A stretch of DNA of 64,000 nt from Acidobacteriota bacterium (GTDB lineage Bacteria; Acidobacteriota; Blastocatellia; RBC074): the NCBI GenBank assembly GCA_016196035.1, contig JACPYM010000123.1:1-64000 (forward strand), in the 5' to 3' direction. Position numbers and translations under genes: made by a program. A model generated the notes under the pieces. That model saw only the letters and a program-made list of their open reading frames with translations. It had not been told where the DNA came from and ran no database searches. Positions within the stretch are counted from its first letter, which is position 1, and each line of letters starts with the position of its first letter. This document shows, one piece after another, positions 27,269-37,432 of the stretch.

Positions 27269-30200
27269 ATGGTCTCAGCACGGCTCACCCACGCTTGGCA
27301 ACGCATGTTCGCGCTGCTTTTCTGTTTCGGCTGGTTGCTGGTCAGCGGACAGCCATTTGGTTCCGGCCACACGTCCGCCCAACAAAAGAAAGCCCCGCCC
27401 AACACTGAGCATGTTTACCTGAGCGACCTGACGCCGGTGTATCAAACCAACGGCCGCGGCCCGGTCGAACGCGACCAGAGCAACGGCGGCGCGCAGGTGC
27501 TGGATGGCCGACCGCTGGCGATCAACGGCGTGCCGTACCGCAAAGGGCTGGGTATTGCGGCATACTCCGAAATCCGTTACGCACTGGATGGGCAATACGC
27601 GGCCTTGCGTGCCGACATTGGCGTGGCCGACGAAGCGGGCGCGCGCGGCTCGGTTGTCTTTCGTGTGTTGGTAGATGGCGTGAAGGTGTTTGAGAGCGGT
27701 GTGTTGAAAGGCGGCATGGCGGCGCAGCCGATTTCGATCAATGTGGCGGGCCGGAAGGAGTTGGTGTTGATCGTGCGCGCTGCCGGAGATGGCGACGAAG
27801 ATGATTCCGCCATCTGGGCCGAAGCACGGCTGGAAGTTGCGCCGGGCGGCGTTGCGTCTGTCGCCAATATGCCAGAGGGCAATGCGCCAGCGGCGAACGA
27901 CGGCGACGCCATGCCCGCGCATTCGCACGCGCCGGGCACAGTGGATGAAGATCACGTGGCGCACGATGCCGAGTTGGCGAAACGGGCGCGCAACTTCGCC
28001 GGGTTCATCACGCCCAAAGACATCGTGTATGCCGCCGCGCCGGAGCAACTGTCGCAACTGGGGTTGTGGAGCGGCGTGACGACGTGGCCGTTCGCCTTTG
28101 CCTCCGTCGCCACCTTGCCGGATGGCCGGTTGCTGGCTTGGGGTGGCAACAATCTGCGCTATTTCAATGGCGGCGCGAACACGTTTGCCGCGCTTTGGAA
28201 TCCCGCCAACAATCAAATTACTTCGATCAACAACGACGACCACAGCATGTTTTGCGCGATCCCGACGATGCTCGAAGACGGGCGCGTTTTCGTCAACGGC
28301 GGCGACGGCACGCGCGAACGGGTCAGCATCTTCGACTGGCGCACCAATCTGTGGACGCGCGCCGAAGATATGAACCGGGGCCGCTGGTATCCGGGCAGTG
28401 TGGCTTTGCCGAATGGGCAGGTCTTCACGGCGCTGGGCGAACCGGGCGATGTTTATCCCGAAGTGTGGACGGCGGGGCAGGGCTGGATGCTGTTAAACGG
28501 CGCGAACCTGCAAGCTCCCGTGCTGGATTTCCCCGGCTATCAAAACAACTGGCTGCCGTATTTTCATCTTGCGCCAAACGGCAACATTTTCCATTCCGGC
28601 CCGACGCAGCAGATGAATTGGATCAATCCCACGGGCAGCGGCAGCGTGGTGAGCGCGGGTCTCAACAACACCTGGTATCCCAAATATGGCGGCGCGGTGA
28701 TGTATGACAAAGGCAAGCTGCTGGTCACGGGCGGACAGATTGACGGCAACACTGTGGCCGCCACCAGTCTGGCGCAGGTGATTGACGTGAACGGCGCGAA
28801 TGCGACGCGCACACCGGTGGCGGCGATGCAATACGCGCGCAAATTCCATAACGCGCTGGTGCTGCCCAACGGCGAAGTCATGGTAGTGGGCGGCAATACG
28901 GTGGGCCAGGAATTCGACGATACCGGCACCGTGCTCGCGCCCGAAATATGGAATCCCGACACCGGCGTTTGGCGCACCGTCGCCGACATCGCGGTGCCGC
29001 GCAACTATCACTCGGTCGCGGTGCTGCTGACCGATGGGCGCGTCTGGTCGGGCGGCGGTGGCCTGTGCGATTGCGCGGCGGATCATCCCGATCATCAGAT
29101 TTTCACGCCGCCTTATCTTTACACGGCGGCGGGCACGCTGGCCGCGCGTCCGACCATCAGCAGCGCACCGGCCCAGGTCGTCGCGGGCCAAACGATCAGC
29201 GTGCAAGCCACCGCGAGCCTGGCGAAATTCAGCCTGATCAAATTCACGGGGCTGACGCATGATCTCAACTCCGACCTGCGTTACTTGCGCGTGCCGTTCA
29301 CCTCGCCAGCGAGCGGGCAGTATCAACTGACGCTGGATGGCAATCGCAACGTGCTGACGCCCGGTTACTGGATGCTGTTTGCGCTGAACTCAGCCGGCGT
29401 GCCGTCGGTCGCCAAAGTCATTCAGGTCGTGACGGCGTTGGGGCCGGTCGTGACGACGCCGGTCGTGCAGAACAGCACGCTCAACACCGCCGTCAGTTTG
29501 CAGGTGCGCGCCACCAGCCCGACCGGCGCAATCTTGAGTTACAGCGCGACCGGCTTGCCGCCGGGCACGAGCATCAACAGTCAAACCGGTGTTATTGCCG
29601 GCACGGTGACGCAAACCGGCACCTTCCGCGTGACGGTGACGGTCAGCGATGGCACCAGTGCGCAAGTCGCCTTCGACTGGTTTGTGCGCCGCCCCAATCT
29701 GGCGCAGGGCAAGCCGGCGACACAGGCTTCGATCTATGAAGTCGCCGCCGCCGGGCTGGCCGTGGATGGGAACACCAACGGCAATTACGCCGCCGGTTCG
29801 GTGTCGCATACCAACAGCGCCGCCGCCAACGATTGGTGGCAAGTTGATCTGGGCGCGACCTACACGATTGACAGCTTGCAATTGTGGAATCGCACCGATT
29901 GCTGCCAGTCGCGGTTGCAGAATTTCTATGTCTTTGTTTCGACGACCAACCAAACAGGCCGCAGTTTCAGCACGATTCTCAACGACGCGACGGTCTGGCG
30001 TTTTTATCAGGCGGCAACCGCGCCCAGTACGTTGAACATTCCGGGCGGCGTCAATGGCCGTTATGTGCGCGTGCAATTGGCGGGCACGAATTACCTGTCG
30101 CTGGCCGAGGTGCGCGCGTTCGGCGCGTTGCCGCAAGCCAATCGTCCGCCCGTGTTGGGCGCGCTGCCCCCACGCGTGAATTCGGTCGGCAACACGGTCA

Positions 30201-33200
30201 ACGCCACGCTCACGGCGACTGACCCCGATGGCGACACGCTGGCTTTCAGCGCGACAGGCTTGCCGCCCGGCGTCAGCTTGAGCAGTGCGGGTGTGTTAGC
30301 GGGCACAACAACGACGGCGGGCAATTACAACGTCAACGTCAGCGTCAGCGATGGCCGGGGCGGCACCGCGACAGGCAGCTTCACCTGGGCGGTGAATGCG
30401 CAACTGGCATTGAACGCCATCACGTCTACGCCAAAGCCCGTGAACAGCAACATCACCTACACAGCCAGCGCCATCAACGGCCTCAATCCGCGTTTCAAAT
30501 GGCTCTTCGGCGACGGCACGGCGGAGACGGCGTATGCGACGTCGGCCAGCGTGACCAAGAGTTTCGCGCAACCGGGTCTGTATGTCGTGCGCTGCACGGC
30601 CACCGATGATCGCGGCCTCGAAGTCGTCACGACCTTTGTGCAGGCGGTGCATCTGCCCAGCACGGCCAACCGTCCGGCGGTCTCGATGAACATTGTGCTC
30701 GAAGACCGCGCGGCGGCGAACGACCGGCTCTGGGTGGTCAATCAGGACAACGACACGGTCAGCGTCTTTGACGTCGTGACCAATGCCAAAGCCGCTGAGA
30801 TCGCCGTCGGCGCCGCGCCGCGCAGCCTGGCCATCGCGCCGAATGGCCGCGTCTGGGTGACGAACAAACGCGCGGCGACCATCAGCATCATTGACCCGGC
30901 GACGTTGACCGTCGCACAGACGTTGACGCTGCAATACGCCGCGCAACCCTTCGGCATCGCCTTTGGCGGCGGTGCGGCCTGGATTGCGCTCGAAGCAGTG
31001 GGCAAATTGATTCGGCTGGATGCGGTCACGGGCGCAGTGACAGGCACCGTGAACACCGGGCCGAACGTGCGCCACGTTTCAATCACCAGCGACGGCAGCC
31101 GCGTCTATCTCTCGCGCTTCATCTCGCCGCGCGTGCCGGGCGAAGAGACCGCCGCGCCGCAAGTCGCCAATGGCGGCGGCGAAGTGCTGGTCGTCAACAC
31201 CGCCACGCTGGCCGTCACGCAAACGATTCGCTTGCAACATAGCAACGAACCCGATGCCGAAAATTCCGGACGCGGGATTCCCAACTATCTGGGCCCGGCG
31301 GTCATCTCGCCCGATGGTGTGAACGCTTGGACGCCGTCAAAACAGGATAACCTGTTGCGCGGCACCTTACGTGACGGGCGCAATCTGACCTTTGACAGCA
31401 CGGTGCGCAGCATCACTTCGCGCCTCAACCTGACGACGAACGCCGAGGATTACGCCGCGCGCGTTGACCACAACAACGGCGGCATCGCCAGCACGGGGTT
31501 GTTTGATCGCACGGGCAATTACCTCTTCGTCGCGTTGGAAGGCAGTCGCGAGGTGGCGGTGCTTGATTCGTATGGCAAACGCGAGATCATCCGCGTCAAC
31601 GTAGGCCGCGCGCCGCAAGGGCTGGCTTTGTCGGCGGACGGGCAACGCCTGTTCGTCAGCAACTTCATGGAGCGCACCGTCTCGGTGCTCGATCTGACCG
31701 GCTTGCTCAATGGTGGCGCGCAAACTGTGCCGGTGCTGGCGACGCTCAATGCCGTGGCGACCGAACGCCTGACGGCGCAGGTGCTCAGCGGCAAGCAGCT
31801 CTTTTATGACGCCAAAGACCCGCGCCTCGCGCAGGATGCTTATTTGAGTTGCGCGTCTTGCCACAACGACGGCGGGCACGATGGGCGCGTGTGGGATTTG
31901 ACCGGCTTTGGCGAAGGCTTGCGCAATACCATCGCCTTGCAAGGGCGCGCGGCGGCGCACGGCTTTTCGCACTGGTCGGCGAACTTCGACGAGATTCAGG
32001 ATTTCGAGGGGCAGATTCGCAATCTGTCCGGCGGCACCGGCTTGATGACCGACGCGCAATTCAACACCGGCACGCGCAGCCAGCCGCTCGGCGACCGCAA
32101 GACCGGCGTCAGCGTTGACCTCGACGCGCTGGCGGCGTATGTGGCTTCGCTCAGCGCCTTCTCGCAAAGTCCGTATCGCAACGGCGGCACGTTGACGGCG
32201 GACGCCGTAACAGGCAAGCAAATTTTCCAGACAGCCAATTGCGCGCAATGCCATAGCGGCGTGCTGTTCACCGAAGCGCTGAACGGTACGCTGCGCAACA
32301 TCGGCACGCTCAAACCGTCGAGTGGCTCACGGCTGGGCGGGCCGCTGACGGGCATTGACACGCCGACGCTGCGCGACGTGTGGGCGACCGCGCCCTATCT
32401 GCACGACGGTTCCGCCGCCACGCTGGAAGAGGCCGTCAACGCCCACAATAACGTGACGATCAGTGCGACTGACCTGCCCAAGCTGGTCGCCTACCTGCAA
32501 CAAATCGGCAGCGAAGAGGCGAGTGCACCCGCAGCCAACCAATCCCCGACGGCCAGTCTGACCGCGCCAGCGAACAATGCGACGTTCACCGCGCCCGCCA
32601 CGATCAATCTGGCGGCGAACGCGGCGGATGGCGACGGCACCATCGCTCGTGTTGAGTTTTATCAGGGCGCAACGAAGCTCGGTGAAGACACATCTGCGCC
32701 GTACACCTTCGCTTGGACGAATGTGGCGGCGGGTTCGTATAGCCTGACCGCGCGGGCTGTTGATAACGGGAGCGCGAGCACGAATTCGACCGCCATCAAC
32801 GTGACGGTGACACCGGCGGGCGGCGGCGGCGTGCAGGATGTCATTTGGACGAGTCTCGTCAATACCACCGTCAGCGGCACGACGTTGCGCAAAACGGCGG
32901 GCAGCAATGAGGGCAGCCCGGACGGCAGCGCCAGTTCGCAACAAACGATTGCGAGCGGCGACGGCTATGTCGAATTCACCGCCACGGGGCCGAATGTGTA
33001 CCGCGCGGTGGGGCTGAATGGCGCTGACGCGCTCACTTCGTTTGACGCGTTGGATTACGCGGTCGTCTTCACCAACACGAACATCGCTGAATTCCGCCAG
33101 GCGGGCGCCTATCGCGGCGACACGTTTTTCGCCCTCAACGACGTGTTTCGGGTGGCGGTCGAAAGCGGCGTCGTGAATTTTTATAAGAACGGCGTGCGGC

Positions 33201-34141
33201 TGGCGAGCGGTTCCAGCGCGCCGGTTTATCCACTCAAGGCAGGCGCGGTGTTCACTTATCTCAACGGCGAAATCGCCGCCGCCAAAATCTCCGGCGGTGG
33301 CGGCGGTGGCGGCACTTGCACCTATTCCGTCGCGCCGCTCAGCTTGAGTTTCGCCACGGCGGGCGGCGCGGCGAATGTCAACGTGACCGCGCAAGCCGGT
33401 TGCGCCTGGACGGCCACGAGCAATGCCGCCTGGTTGACGGTGACGGCGGGCGCGAGTGGCACGGGCAACGGCGTGGTGAGCGTATCGGCGGCGGCGAACG
33501 CCGGCGCGCAACGCAACGCCGTCTTGACCGTGGCCGGGCAAAGCGTGGCGGTGACGCAAGCGGCGGCAGCGGCGACCGGCAACAACATCGTCTGGACGGA
33601 GTTGGTGAATACGATTGTGAGCGGCAACGTCTTGCGCAAGACGGGCGGCGCGAGTGACGGCACCTGGGATGGCAGCGCGGCTTCGCAGCAGTCGTTGGCG
33701 AGCGGCGCGGGCTGGCTCGAATTCACCGCGACCGGGCCACAGGTTTATCACGCCGTCGGCTTGAACGCCCAAGGCGCGTTGGGGAAAGAGAGTTCGATTG
33801 ATTTTGCGGTGGTGTTCACCAACGCCAACATCGCCGAATTCCGCGAAAACGGCGCTTATCGCGGCGACACCCTTTTCGTCACGGGCGATGTGTTCCGCGT
33901 GGCCATCGAAGGCACGAGTGTCAACTTTTACAAGAACGGCAGCCTGCTGGCGCAAAGCGCGACCGCGCCTGCCTATCCGATTCGTGCGGCAGCGGTCTTT
34001 GCCCAAGCCGGCGGCGAAGTGAGCAATGCCAAGTTGACGGCGGGCACGGTCGCGGCCAGCGGCTTCAATGTGACACCGTTGTTTTGGTGGCAGCGCGGCA
34101 AGGAATGGCTGGGTTCGTTGGTGGCGGTTTTGCTCCAATAG
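27269..34141 (+). CDS. Giant secreted multidomain oxidoreductase: NPCBM + copper-radical-oxidase-like + di-heme cytochrome c
   Basis: A 2290-aa protein with a signal peptide (about 1-37). Domains in order: NPCBM carbohydrate-binding (48-190); galactose/glyoxal-oxidase-like kelch propeller with C-terminal Ig-like domain (about 255-735); Ig (740-805); F5/8 type C discoidin (810-955); Ig (958-1045); PKD (1047-1130); YVTN-type beta-propeller (1150-1475); cytochrome c region with CASCH (1528-1532) and CAQCH (1658-1662); Big-type Ig (1759-1850); two copies of an unrecognised beta module (1856-2007, 2105-2257) around a BACON domain (2016-2097). Copper-radical ligands appear present: C329 (SMFC), Y374 (RWYP), Y580-H581, H664 (LTHD). 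It should oxidise an extracellular alcohol or sugar, with electrons perhaps passed to the hemes. Start follows GGAGG. Confidence 0.85.
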   Translation: MVSARLTHAWQRMFALLFCFGWLLVSGQPFGSGHTSAQQKKAPPNTEHVYLSDLTPVYQTNGRGPVERDQSNGGAQVLDGRPLAINGVPYRKGLGIAAYSEIRYALDGQYAALRADIGVADEAGARGSVVFRVLVDGVKVFESGVLKGGMAAQPISINVAGRKELVLIVRAAGDGDEDDSAIWAEARLEVAPGGVASVANMPEGNAPAANDGDAMPAHSHAPGTVDEDHVAHDAELAKRARNFAGFITPKDIVYAAAPEQLSQLGLWSGVTTWPFAFASVATLPDGRLLAWGGNNLRYFNGGANTFAALWNPANNQITSINNDDHSMFCAIPTMLEDGRVFVNGGDGTRERVSIFDWRTNLWTRAEDMNRGRWYPGSVALPNGQVFTALGEPGDVYPEVWTAGQGWMLLNGANLQAPVLDFPGYQNNWLPYFHLAPNGNIFHSGPTQQMNWINPTGSGSVVSAGLNNTWYPKYGGAVMYDKGKLLVTGGQIDGNTVAATSLAQVIDVNGANATRTPVAAMQYARKFHNALVLPNGEVMVVGGNTVGQEFDDTGTVLAPEIWNPDTGVWRTVADIAVPRNYHSVAVLLTDGRVWSGGGGLCDCAADHPDHQIFTPPYLYTAAGTLAARPTISSAPAQVVAGQTISVQATASLAKFSLIKFTGLTHDLNSDLRYLRVPFTSPASGQYQLTLDGNRNVLTPGYWMLFALNSAGVPSVAKVIQVVTALGPVVTTPVVQNSTLNTAVSLQVRATSPTGAILSYSATGLPPGTSINSQTGVIAGTVTQTGTFRVTVTVSDGTSAQVAFDWFVRRPNLAQGKPATQASIYEVAAAGLAVDGNTNGNYAAGSVSHTNSAAANDWWQVDLGATYTIDSLQLWNRTDCCQSRLQNFYVFVSTTNQTGRSFSTILNDATVWRFYQAATAPSTLNIPGGVNGRYVRVQLAGTNYLSLAEVRAFGALPQANRPPVLGALPPRVNSVGNTVNATLTATDPDGDTLAFSATGLPPGVSLSSAGVLAGTTTTAGNYNVNVSVSDGRGGTATGSFTWAVNAQLALNAITSTPKPVNSNITYTASAINGLNPRFKWLFGDGTAETAYATSASVTKSFAQPGLYVVRCTATDDRGLEVVTTFVQAVHLPSTANRPAVSMNIVLEDRAAANDRLWVVNQDNDTVSVFDVVTNAKAAEIAVGAAPRSLAIAPNGRVWVTNKRAATISIIDPATLTVAQTLTLQYAAQPFGIAFGGGAAWIALEAVGKLIRLDAVTGAVTGTVNTGPNVRHVSITSDGSRVYLSRFISPRVPGEETAAPQVANGGGEVLVVNTATLAVTQTIRLQHSNEPDAENSGRGIPNYLGPAVISPDGVNAWTPSKQDNLLRGTLRDGRNLTFDSTVRSITSRLNLTTNAEDYAARVDHNNGGIASTGLFDRTGNYLFVALEGSREVAVLDSYGKREIIRVNVGRAPQGLALSADGQRLFVSNFMERTVSVLDLTGLLNGGAQTVPVLATLNAVATERLTAQVLSGKQLFYDAKDPRLAQDAYLSCASCHNDGGHDGRVWDLTGFGEGLRNTIALQGRAAAHGFSHWSANFDEIQDFEGQIRNLSGGTGLMTDAQFNTGTRSQPLGDRKTGVSVDLDALAAYVASLSAFSQSPYRNGGTLTADAVTGKQIFQTANCAQCHSGVLFTEALNGTLRNIGTLKPSSGSRLGGPLTGIDTPTLRDVWATAPYLHDGSAATLEEAVNAHNNVTISATDLPKLVAYLQQIGSEEASAPAANQSPTASLTAPANNATFTAPATINLAANAADGDGTIARVEFYQGATKLGEDTSAPYTFAWTNVAAGSYSLTARAVDNGSASTNSTAINVTVTPAGGGGVQDVIWTSLVNTTVSGTTLRKTAGSNEGSPDGSASSQQTIASGDGYVEFTATGPNVYRAVGLNGADALTSFDALDYAVVFTNTNIAEFRQAGAYRGDTFFALNDVFRVAVESGVVNFYKNGVRLASGSSAPVYPLKAGAVFTYLNGEIAAAKISGGGGGGGTCTYSVAPLSLSFATAGGAANVNVTAQAGCAWTATSNAAWLTVTAGASGTGNGVVSVSAAANAGAQRNAVLTVAGQSVAVTQAAAAATGNNIVWTELVNTIVSGNVLRKTGGASDGTWDGSAASQQSLASGAGWLEFTATGPQVYHAVGLNAQGALGKESSIDFAVVFTNANIAEFRENGAYRGDTLFVTGDVFRVAIEGTSVNFYKNGSLLAQSATAPAYPIRAAAVFAQAGGEVSNAKLTAGTVAASGFNVTPLFWWQRGKEWLGSLVAVLLQ

Positions 34142-34678: not shown

Positions 34679-37432
34679 ATGCGCACGGTGTTGTTGAGTC
34701 TTTTTCTACTCTTATCTTTGCTCGCCAGTCTGGCGGGCGTATATGCCAAATCCGGCCCGAAAGAAATTGTGGCCACGCCGACCGCGCCGACGGGCTTCCT
34801 GAATGAAAGCTTTATCAGCACCGGGCTGGTGTTGCCGACGGCCATCGCCTTTGCGCCGGGCAATACCGTCTTCATTGCCGAAAAGCGCGGCGTCGTGCGC
34901 GTCTGGCGGCAAGGGGCCTTGTTGGCCGCGCCTTTTATTGACATCCAGGATGATGTGAACAGCCTCGGTGATCGCGGCATGTTGGGGTTGGCTGTGCATC
35001 CTGATTTCCCCAACACGCCTTACGTTTATCTGCTTTACACCTACGACCCGCCGGGCGCGCCCAAAGATGGCGTGGGCGCGCGCGTGAGCCGTTTGTTGCG
35101 TGTGACGGCGCAGGCGGACAACCCTTACGTTGCGGCCACCAGCGAAGGCAGCCGCGTGGTGATCTTGGGCACGAACAGCACGCTGGCCAACAGCGGGAAC
35201 GTGGGGAATCTTGAGGATTCGGATCATCCGGCTTGCGGGCGCGGGCCGGTGTTTGATGAACCGTTTGTGCGCGATTGCGTGCCTTCGGACGCCGATACGC
35301 ACAGCATCGGCACGGTGACGTTCGGGCCGGATGGCAATCTGTATGTTGGCACGGGTGACGGAGCCGGTTACACGACGGCTGATCCGCGCGCCTTGCGGGC
35401 GCAAGAATTGGACAGCATGGGCGGCAAGATTTTCCGGCTTGATCCAATCACAGGGCGCGGGTTGCGCGACAATCCGTTTTGGGACGGCGATGCTGACAGC
35501 AACCGTTCAAAAGTGCTGAGTTATGGCTTGCGCAATCCGTTCCGCTTCACGCTTCATCCGCGCACGGGCGAGTTGTATACGGGCGATGTCGGTTGGGCGA
35601 CGTGGGAAGAGATCAATGTCGGCAACGGCAAGAATTTCGGCTGGCCTTGTTACGAAGGCGGCGACCAGGGGAGCGCGCGCCAGGGGCAATACGCCAACAA
35701 CGGCGGCACGCTGCAACGCTGCCAGCAGCTTTACGCCGAAGGCGAAGGCGCGGTGCAAGCGCCCGCATACGCCTATCAGCACTTTCTGATTTCGGCCTCG
35801 GTAGCGGCGGGCGGTTTTTATGCGGGTACGGCGTGGCCGGTGCAATATCGCAACGCGCTGTTTATTTCGGATTACAGCCGCAACTGGATCAAGTTTGCGA
35901 CCTTTGACGCGGACGGGCGCGTGACGGTGCACGATTTTGCCGAGAGCGTGGCGGATCGCGGCGGGCCTGCGCAAGTGACTTTCGGGCCGGATGGCAATTT
36001 GTATTATGTGGCGCTGGGCATGCTGAGCGAGATTCGCCGCATTCGTTATGTGCCGAATGGGAACAGCGCTCCCACCGCCGACATCGTGGCGGACAAAACC
36101 AGCGGATCAGCGCCGTTGACGGTGAAGTTTTCGGGCCGCGGTTCAGCCGATGCCGAAGGCCAGACGCTGTCTTATGCCTGGGATTTCGGCGACGGCGGCA
36201 AGTCCACGCAAGCGGAGCCGGAACACGTATACACCCGCGAGGGCCGCTTCACCGCGACGCTGATCGTGACTGACCCGCAAGGATTGGCGGGCAGCGCACA
36301 ACTTGAAATCATTGTCGGCAACAGCCGCCCGGATTTCTACTTCACCTCGCCCGGGCCGCAATGGACGTATTACAGCGGCGGCGAAGTCGGCTTCAGCGTT
36401 ACGGCCACTGATCCCGAAGAGGGCGACGTTTCTTACCTGACGCAATACAAGGTGCTGCTGCATCACGGCGAACACGTGCATTTCGACCAATCAAGCTATA
36501 AAGGCTCCAGCGGGACTTTCATCGCCGAAGATCACGGCGATAACACCTATTACGAAGTCTGCGCCGTGGCCTATGACACGCAAGGCGCGGCGTCGGTGGG
36601 GAAATGTCTGGATGTGCGCCCGTTCACGGTGCGTTACACCATTGACACTGTGCCGAGCGGCTTGCGCATTGATTACGGTGGGGCGAGCTACACGACGCCT
36701 TTCACTGTGCCGACGATCACCAATTCCAAACGCGACCTAAGCGCGCCCACGACGCAGAACGGCTACCAATTCAGCGACTGGTCAGACGGCGGCGCGCGTG
36801 CGCATACGCTGACCATCGAAGACGGCCCGCGCACCTTGATTGCCCGGTATCAACCTGTGGGGCCTGTGACAGCAGACACGCCGGTTTACCTGAGCGATCT
36901 GACGCCGACCTATCAAGCGAACGGCTGGGGGCCAATGGAACGCGATCTGAGCAATGGCGAAGCGGCGGCGCGGGATGGCCGCGTGCTAACGATCAACGGC
37001 GTGCAATATCCCAAAGGGTTGGGCGTGCATGCGCTCTCGGAAGTGCGTTATGCCTTGGATGGCCAGTACAGCCGTTTCCAAACGGATGTTGGTGTGGATG
37101 ACGAGGTCGGGTTGCACGGCTCGGTCGTCTTTCAGGTCTTTGCTGATGGCGAGAAGCTGTATGACAGCGGGTTGATGTTTGGCTATCAGTCGGCCAAACA
37201 CGTCAGCCTGAGCATCGCGGGCAAACGCGAATTGCGCTTGCTGGTGCTGACCGGCAACGGCAACCGTGATCAGGATCACGCCGATTGGGCCGGAGCCAGA
37301 TTAATTCGTGCGGTCAGCGCCGCTGTTCCAATTGCAGACGCCACCCAGGCGGCAGTACAGACGGGTGGCAAGGTGGCAGGGTTCAAACAACCCTCTTTCT
37401 TTACCGGGCGCGCCCGCACGTGGCGGCGGTAA
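34679..37432 (+). CDS. Secreted PQQ sugar-dehydrogenase-like protein with PKD and NPCBM domains
   Basis: A 917-aa protein. The ATG at 34679 is chosen because it starts a clear signal peptide (MRTVLLSLFLLLSLLASLAG) behind GGGAG. Residues about 40-460 are a soluble glucose-dehydrogenase-type propeller: TAIAFAPGNTVFIAEKRGVV, LGDRGMLGLAVHPDF, DADTHSIGTVTFGPDGNLYV, YGLRNPFRF and GDVGWATWEEINVG. A PKD domain follows (about 475-555), then a beta region and an InlB-like repeat (to about 735), and a C-terminal NPCBM domain (about 740-885) related to the N-terminal domain of the upstream giant protein. It likely oxidises a sugar outside the cell with PQQ; ligand residues cannot be verified by eye. Confidence 0.85.
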   Translation: MRTVLLSLFLLLSLLASLAGVYAKSGPKEIVATPTAPTGFLNESFISTGLVLPTAIAFAPGNTVFIAEKRGVVRVWRQGALLAAPFIDIQDDVNSLGDRGMLGLAVHPDFPNTPYVYLLYTYDPPGAPKDGVGARVSRLLRVTAQADNPYVAATSEGSRVVILGTNSTLANSGNVGNLEDSDHPACGRGPVFDEPFVRDCVPSDADTHSIGTVTFGPDGNLYVGTGDGAGYTTADPRALRAQELDSMGGKIFRLDPITGRGLRDNPFWDGDADSNRSKVLSYGLRNPFRFTLHPRTGELYTGDVGWATWEEINVGNGKNFGWPCYEGGDQGSARQGQYANNGGTLQRCQQLYAEGEGAVQAPAYAYQHFLISASVAAGGFYAGTAWPVQYRNALFISDYSRNWIKFATFDADGRVTVHDFAESVADRGGPAQVTFGPDGNLYYVALGMLSEIRRIRYVPNGNSAPTADIVADKTSGSAPLTVKFSGRGSADAEGQTLSYAWDFGDGGKSTQAEPEHVYTREGRFTATLIVTDPQGLAGSAQLEIIVGNSRPDFYFTSPGPQWTYYSGGEVGFSVTATDPEEGDVSYLTQYKVLLHHGEHVHFDQSSYKGSSGTFIAEDHGDNTYYEVCAVAYDTQGAASVGKCLDVRPFTVRYTIDTVPSGLRIDYGGASYTTPFTVPTITNSKRDLSAPTTQNGYQFSDWSDGGARAHTLTIEDGPRTLIARYQPVGPVTADTPVYLSDLTPTYQANGWGPMERDLSNGEAAARDGRVLTINGVQYPKGLGVHALSEVRYALDGQYSRFQTDVGVDDEVGLHGSVVFQVFADGEKLYDSGLMFGYQSAKHVSLSIAGKRELRLLVLTGNGNRDQDHADWAGARLIRAVSAAVPIADATQAAVQTGGKVAGFKQPSFFTGRARTWRR

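Follow-up and report, generated by a model that had tools for sequence, protein, structure and literature searches.

A copper-radical-oxidase domain joined to a propeller and a di-heme domain in one secreted protein: an apparently undescribed, recurrent redox architecture

Can a copper-radical oxidase (CRO) and c-type hemes that are encoded in a single reading frame act as one redox unit? This question is raised by an ORF in the window, i.e. the whole stretch of 64,000 nucleotides analyzed here (contig JACPYM010000123.1 of an Acidobacteriota bacterium, a soil-type host). The initial annotation, made from the sequence alone, had described the single ORF at 27269..34141 (+) as a secreted protein of 2290 aa combining a CRO-like domain, a YVTN propeller, a di-heme cytochrome c and several accessory modules. 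The reading frame was confirmed and contains no internal stop, and its N-terminus reads as signal-peptide-like over about residues 1-37. A Pfam scan of the protein returned NPCBM, F5/8C, PKD, He_PIG, Big_7, BACON, YNCE and CCP_MauG, so that the NPCBM, F5/8C, PKD, Ig-type and BACON modules proposed earlier were matched. The propeller/di-heme unit is hereafter called the chassis. The features of the locus are as follows.

27410..27832 (+): carbohydrate-targeting NPCBM domain, residues 48-188 (Pfam PF08305, E 1.3e-43)
28058..29428 (+): galactose-oxidase-like (AA5-type) copper domain with its early-set domain, residues 264-720
28253..28255 (+): C329, partner in the Cys-Tyr cofactor (alignment to galactose oxidase; 17/17 fused proteins)
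28388..28390 (+): Y374, cofactor tyrosine (alignment; 17/17 fused proteins)
29006..29011 (+): Y580-H581, axial Tyr and first His copper ligands (alignment; 17/17 fused proteins)
29258..29260 (+): H664, second His copper ligand (alignment; 17/17 fused proteins)
29444..30643 (+): linker domains, namely He_PIG-like (about 726-806), F5/8 type C (827-947), He_PIG (960-1043) and PKD (1051-1125) (Pfam)
30680..31708 (+): hydrazine-synthase-beta-like beta-propeller, residues about 1138-1480 (Pfam YNCE and fold match of the model)
31784..32524 (+): di-heme domain of the CCP/MauG/HZS-gamma superfamily, residues about 1506-1752 (sequence)
31850..31864 (+): heme 1 site CASCH, residues 1528-1532 (sequence)
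31970..31975 (+): H1568-W1569, with W at the CCP/MauG inter-heme Trp position (alignment)
32240..32254 (+): heme 2 site CAQCH, residues 1658-1662 (sequence)
32444..32446 (+): H1726, at the CCP axial Met position (sequence alignment only)
32546..34045 (+): tail with Big_7 (1760-1828), an unnamed domain in two copies (1857-2010 and 2106-2259) and BACON (2020-2098) between the copies (Pfam; repeat comparison)
34679..37432 (+): next gene, GSDH (PQQ-type sugar dehydrogenase-like) with PKD and NPCBM, a possible partner (Pfam; start codon assumed)

The two copies of the unnamed tail domain (~154 aa each; 32837-33298 and 33584-34045) are 60% identical (E 3e-67), and the Pfam scan assigned no family to either copy.

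We compared residues 264-720 with known proteins and obtained matches to crystallised galactose oxidases (phmmer, E 2.4e-97), while Pfam placed the early-set domain PF09118 at residues 627-720, preceded by kelch and by a weak match to glyoxal oxidase. The candidate ligands of the initial annotation (C329, Y374, Y580-H581 and H664) lie exactly where it had placed them and align to identical residues of a bacterial galactose oxidase, at positions that we take to be the copper and Cys-Tyr cofactor residues of that enzyme. A model of the copper domain computed with 24 sequences (pLDDT 92) gave a predicted galactose oxidase fold, for which the best PDB match was galactose oxidase 9g43, with a Z of 58.8 and an rmsd of 2.1 across 464 residues. 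The phmmer match, the high pLDDT of the model and the fold match to 9g43 rule out a chance motif as the source of the copper-site pattern. From these comparisons, we conclude that the window copper domain is a true AA5-type domain with a predicted intact CRO site.

All five copper and cofactor residues are intact in the 17 single-ORF fusions described below (17/17), and a binding-only propeller is therefore unsupported; none of the fused homologues has lost any of the five. The same residues are present in 38/38 unfused CRO rows aligned, so that their conservation is not special to the fusion. These 38 rows are a selection, consisting of 29 rows from 28 of the 34 unfused loci of the contig scan, L003, and the closer 8 of the 22 unfused places in the window's class; loci that were partial or broken (L070, L072, L074, L076, L077 and L078) were omitted. 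The R-x-Y-H-S motif is absent from several more distant CRO frames of the window's class. The window protein shares with AA5 CROs (fungal galactose/alcohol oxidase, glyoxal oxidase and bacterial 9g43) the Kelch propeller and early-set domain, the Cys-Tyr pair, the axial Tyr and the two His, and differs from them in its fusion to the propeller/di-heme unit. A further difference concerns the window's clade (7 rows), in which the GGSW motif is absent and a Trp directly precedes the cofactor Tyr; this motif contains W290, presumably the stacking Trp of galactose oxidase after the cofactor Tyr, and is present in five Burkholderiales rows of clade II (see below).

The copper part is separated from the heme part by Ig, F5/8C and PKD domains. 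The model of the chassis had a mean pLDDT of 67, and values below 50 ran over long parts of its di-heme half. The earlier designation of the propeller as YVTN held in part, since an archaeal YVTN protein is a close match (Z 35.7), but the best PDB match was hydrazine synthase beta (5c2v_B, Z 36.8). Both CxxCH sites start at residues 1528 and 1658, as annotated, and belong to a domain assigned by sequence to the CCP/MauG/HZS-gamma superfamily, with MauG and MbnH family models among its matches. Because the model of the di-heme half is poor, the assignment of axial ligands rests on alignment. In di-heme CCP, the residues of interest are the inter-heme Trp, a distal His and an axial Met on the high-potential heme, and the six-coordinate heme of MauG carries an axial Tyr. 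When aligned to peroxidase 3o5c, the window protein has W1569 at the place of the inter-heme Trp and H1726 at that of the axial Met, and it has no counterpart to the distal His of the peroxidatic heme. Thus, the domain resembles both di-heme CCP and MauG in its two CxxCH sites and its Trp at the inter-heme position, and differs from CCP in the missing distal His and in the replacement of the axial Met by H1726. The axial Tyr of MauG would also correspond to this His, which was placed through the CCP alignment. By alignment, the domain thus appears to be distinct from classical peroxidases and from MauG. Bis-His ligation is probable for heme 2, and an open or weakly ligated state for heme 1.

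Both CxxCH sites, H1568, W1569, E1575, D1578 and H1726 were invariant in 14/14 CRO-bearing chassis aligned (an alignment that leaves out L151-L153), whereas among 8 other chassis W1569 was kept in 7 and a His was found at the H1726 position in 4. The heme residues are much alike without a CRO, and nothing found in the hemes is therefore CRO-specific. The window's genome encodes a second, distant propeller/di-heme protein without a CRO (L129, on G000:C88; a 769-aa frame), which has Asn-Tyr at the place of the His-Trp of CRO-bearing chassis. With hydrazine synthase beta-gamma and its fused homologues, the chassis has in common the order of propeller and then di-heme domain, the propeller being recognized by fold and the di-heme domain by sequence. 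The window protein differs in the copper oxidase at its N-terminus and in its match to NCBIfam hydrazine_BC (E 1.7e-21), which at 76 bits is far under the family cut-off of 1250 bits. In addition, hydrazine synthase gamma has a third heme-binding residue, Cys165, according to excerpts of PMC12758564; no third heme-binding Cys was found in the window protein, in which residues 1110-2016 hold only the four cysteines of the CxxCH sites.

We further searched for proteins with the same domain order and found 16 additional single-ORF fusions, i.e. 17 including the window, from 14 genomes and six phyla by record title. A plasmid search yielded a Comamonadaceae protein (L002) that aligns over residues 240-1752 (41.5%). 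A scan of genome contigs gave 44 loci, of which 34 were unfused CRO loci and 10 had the complete order in one ORF: L037 (Blastocatellia MAG), L038 (Rubrivivax), L039, L040, L041 (Myxococcota), L042 and L043 (Opitutaceae), L044 (Sphaerotilus natans ATCC 13338), L045 (Phycisphaerae) and L073 (Chloroflexi). The first of these is the same record as G147/L028, a genome of the window's family with the identical domain order in one frame; in a genome of the same genus (G146), a fragment with 78% identity is cut by the end of its contig. Two further copies were found in the Rubrivivax genome (L122 and L123) and three fusions in two more genomes of the Sphaerotilus order (L151; L152 and L153). Among the Burkholderiales rows of the relative search, H2, H3, H4, H10 and H11 were examined, and H14, H16 and H17 were left out. 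A near chassis is encoded in 12/399 genomes of the Sphaerotilus order, and the CRO early-set domain in 20 of 162 genomes of the window's class, where a frame of >2000 aa occurs only in the window and G147. An assembly chimera is rejected as a general explanation, because the fusion is also present in Sphaerotilus natans ATCC 13338 and in a complete plasmid record (L002), besides MAGs.

At the 34 unfused CRO loci (≤8 kb on each side, less on short contigs), no separate adjoining CRO and di-heme genes were found, and the unfused CRO ORFs of the contig scan carry no CxxCH. The fusions scanned contain many lectin-like or carbohydrate-binding modules (NPCBM, F5/8C, PA14, ricin and jacalin). The chassis also occurs behind another N-terminal propeller, labelled LVIVD by eye, in 9 rows (L125, L126, L154-L156 and L161-L164, the N-terminus of L164 being cut off); of two such proteins submitted to Pfam, L156 matched LVIVD and Big_5, and L162 matched Big_5 with no LVIVD match. 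Finally, four proteins (L157-L160) consist of the chassis alone behind an N-terminus that is lipobox-like by eye, and the 14-kb stretches retrieved for them contain no CRO gene.

Phylogenetic trees of the two parts were then compared. In the chassis tree (35 rows, leaving out L128 and L129), one clade (97/99) of 23 rows comprised 17 CRO-bearing chassis, 4 chassis-alone proteins and 2 cut by contig ends, and was adjoined by a clade of 8 rows with the other N-terminal propeller. A strict clade of CRO-bearing chassis alone was rejected (p 0.0049, 22-row set), because L124, the N-terminus of which is cut by a contig end, falls inside the CRO-bearing chassis; in the 35-row tree, the CRO-bearing clade also takes in L165, which is truncated too, and the four chassis without a CRO, as if L157-L160 had lost theirs. 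In the CRO tree (51 rows), fused rows formed three separate clades: clade I (the window, L028, L041, L042, L043, L045 and L073), clade II (L002, L038, L039, L040, L044 and L151) and clade III (L122, L123, L152 and L153). A single clade of fused CROs was rejected (p 1.4e-6; with 12 rows, p 0.0008); the 51-row tree and the constraint tests below also leave out L075, L012, L007 and L015. When each tree was constrained to the grouping of the other, the constraint was rejected (p 0.0004 and 0.0036), the groupings having been chosen after the trees were seen. The conflict between the CRO and chassis trees rules out a single fusion origin with plain vertical descent. The simplest reading is that a single chassis lineage changed its copper oxidase on at least two occasions, receiving each time one with intact catalytic residues. 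That the pairing outlasted the exchange of CROs is the best evidence obtained here, of an indirect kind, for functional coupling of the copper and heme parts, and such recurrent joining across phyla suggests that the two parts work together.

We also analyzed the genes adjacent to the fusions. The GSDH gene downstream of the window gene has an NPCBM domain with 57% identity to the fusion's own, and the intergenic stretch between them contains no promoter-like site and one terminator-like site, no more than in shuffles. A GSDH-NPCBM gene also follows three Burkholderiales chassis genes of the other-propeller type (L154-L156; Pfam on L156). However, GSDH is not beside the chassis in the nearest relatives G147 (L028) and G146 (L131), and the association of GSDH with the chassis is therefore only suggestive.

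A small monoheme cytochrome c gene and an SCO gene follow 5/6 clade-II fusions (L002, L038, L039, L044 and L151, not L040); in this type of neighbourhood, Pfam found SCO1-SenC in both SCO proteins tested and returned no match for the cytochrome in both tested. The same two genes flank the CRO at 6/8 unfused Burkholderiales loci searched (L003, L049 and L132-L135), counts that were obtained with SCO and cytochrome c profiles built partly from loci later matched (6/10 cytochrome loci; 9 SCO rows), with L132-L135 and L151 outside the training sets. Neither SCO nor cytochrome c was matched at the two other loci, L066 and L075. Since the six loci lack a chassis, the cytochrome c goes with the CRO, and it could serve SCO rather than the CRO. 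A conserved set of SCO, CRO and monoheme cytochrome c is thus seen in Burkholderiales, whether or not the chassis is fused to the CRO. In the window's class, five unfused CROs (L006, L010, L011, L014 and L019) likewise have an SCO gene next to them, with no match to the cytochrome profile in these mostly short stretches; weak SCO matches were found beside L060, L063 and L064 (E 1e-6 to 1e-7), and the truncated chassis L165 has an SCO match. Beside the window gene and the remaining fusions of clades I and III, no match to SCO or cytochrome c was found; the window's genome has four SCO matches at other places.

MbnP and MbnH are a copper-binding pair, and in Opitutaceae a gene with Pfam matches to MbnP and CCP_MauG (4228-6054 in L042) lies 3 bases upstream of the fusion; a 70% identical copy (5990-7786 in L043) lies 19 bases upstream of the second one. 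Directly downstream of the G147 fusion gene, a 326-aa protein with a heavy-metal-binding domain is encoded (L028, 4808-5785). The window gene has no SCO, cytochrome c, MbnP/CCP_MauG or heavy-metal-binding-domain neighbour. Copper-handling genes that recur beside fusions in some lineages (SCO, and MbnP with CCP_MauG), the heavy-metal-binding-domain protein next to the G147 gene and the monoheme cytochrome c support coupling. Against coupling speak the occurrence of the chassis alone or behind the other propeller, the heme residues that change little without a CRO, the apparent loss of the CRO in L157-L160, the lack of all these neighbours at the window gene and the domains interposed between its copper and heme parts.

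Published CROs have been paired with heme enzymes in two cases. In the fungal Perox-AlcOx pair (Colletotrichum/Magnaporthe), the heme peroxidase activates the CRO by one-electron oxidation, which CROs need for activity (excerpts of PMC9770985); these are two separate proteins, and the peroxidase is of class II. In Streptomyces, excerpts of PMC4736821 describe the CRO GlxA as working with the copper chaperone Sco and the heme peroxidase DtpA, both being needed for GlxA maturation when copper is short; DtpA is a separate DyP-type protein, whereas in the window protein the heme part is of the c-type di-heme kind and shares its chain with the CRO. As to the chassis, in hydrazine synthase the product of gamma reaches alpha by way of a tunnel, and homologues in which beta and gamma are fused occur widely (excerpts of PMC12758564). 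Taken together, the published CRO activation, GlxA maturation and hydrazine synthase tunnel lead us to infer that the chassis may serve the CRO in cis as its heme oxidant.

We consider that there is about an even chance that the protein is a secreted, probably glycan-targeted CRO in which the hemes are the in-cis one-electron partner that oxidizes or activates the copper-radical site. The CRO would oxidize a primary alcohol (of a sugar, a polysaccharide or a glycan end) to the aldehyde, and the di-heme chassis would take single electrons from the copper-tyrosyl site. At the minimum, the chassis would lift the inactive, one-electron-reduced CRO back to the Cu(II)-radical state. The oxidant for the chassis could be H2O2 made by the CRO, and/or electrons could be passed on to cytochrome c, and the arrangement would then be an in-cis counterpart of the GlxA-DtpA and AlcOx-Perox pairs. 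An outflow of electrons is favoured by the cytochrome c genes next to unfused CROs, and peroxide-driven activation by the di-heme superfamily and the published pairs. The initial annotation had proposed that coupling to c-hemes would allow electron delivery to an acceptor other than O2, or use of H2O2 by the heme part. It is supported in part, namely in the pairing of a CRO site with a di-heme module in one chain; the cytochrome c genes beside clade-II fusions and unfused CROs bear on its first proposal, and the inter-heme Trp, kept while the distal His and axial Met of CCP are missing, bears on its second.

Among the other readings, the protein may be a copper-radical dehydrogenase, a doubtful possibility in which both electrons of each turnover would leave through the di-heme domain to cytochrome c and respiration rather than reducing O2 to H2O2, and in which the chassis would be a general acceptor for copper enzymes in cis and perhaps, in trans, for the PQQ-type sugar dehydrogenase of the next gene. 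It is unlikely that the CRO is a peroxide feeder, making H2O2 at the surface for a chassis peroxidase that uses it on an external substrate or just removes it, with no direct electron exchange between copper and heme. In the alignment, the distal His and axial Met of CCP are absent, and cytochrome c accompanies the CRO at six loci without a chassis; on the other side, the CCP/MauG-superfamily domain keeps its Trp, a chassis that exists without a CRO probably has an activity of its own, and DtpA is proposed to remove H2O2 made by GlxA (excerpts of PMC4736821). Mere co-targeting, in which two independent secreted enzymes share one chain and common binding modules with no redox contact, would account for the many carbohydrate-binding modules of the fusions, the exchangeable CRO and the existence of CRO-less chassis. 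It is rather improbable, since three CRO lineages, all catalytically intact as judged by their residues, sit on one chassis lineage, and since cytochrome c adjoins unfused CROs. Because galactose oxidase forms its Cys-Tyr cross-link with copper and O2 alone and unfused CRO ORFs of the contig scan lack CxxCH, the di-heme domain is quite unlikely to be a built-in maturase that acts once per molecule, like MauG or MbnH, in aiding the cross-link or setting the copper oxidation state, even with MauG and MbnH family models among its matches and an MbnP/CCP_MauG gene abutting the Opitutaceae fusions. The need of GlxA maturation for a heme peroxidase when copper is short (excerpts of PMC4736821) also points to such a role.

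The protein contains a true AA5-type domain in what is apparently a recurrent and undescribed redox architecture. Among the matches listed in the open-access literature, no CRO shared a chain or an operon with a cytochrome, and there was no described enzyme of the same domain set, in line with the initial annotation. The reference list of PMC11267884 includes work on a bacterial AA5 enzyme that carries a fused CE3 domain.

The wider meaning lies in the activation of CROs. The natural one-electron oxidants that activate bacterial CROs are, to our knowledge, mostly unknown, and a natural CRO-heme fusion found across phyla and CRO lineages makes the question of the activation partner addressable in one purified protein. 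If it is true that the hemes accept electrons in each turnover, the protein would be an oxygen-independent enzyme of the galactose oxidase type, for use on electrodes and in peroxide-free sugar oxidation. The fusion also gives a partner to the widespread and unexplained hydrazine-synthase-like propeller/di-heme proteins.
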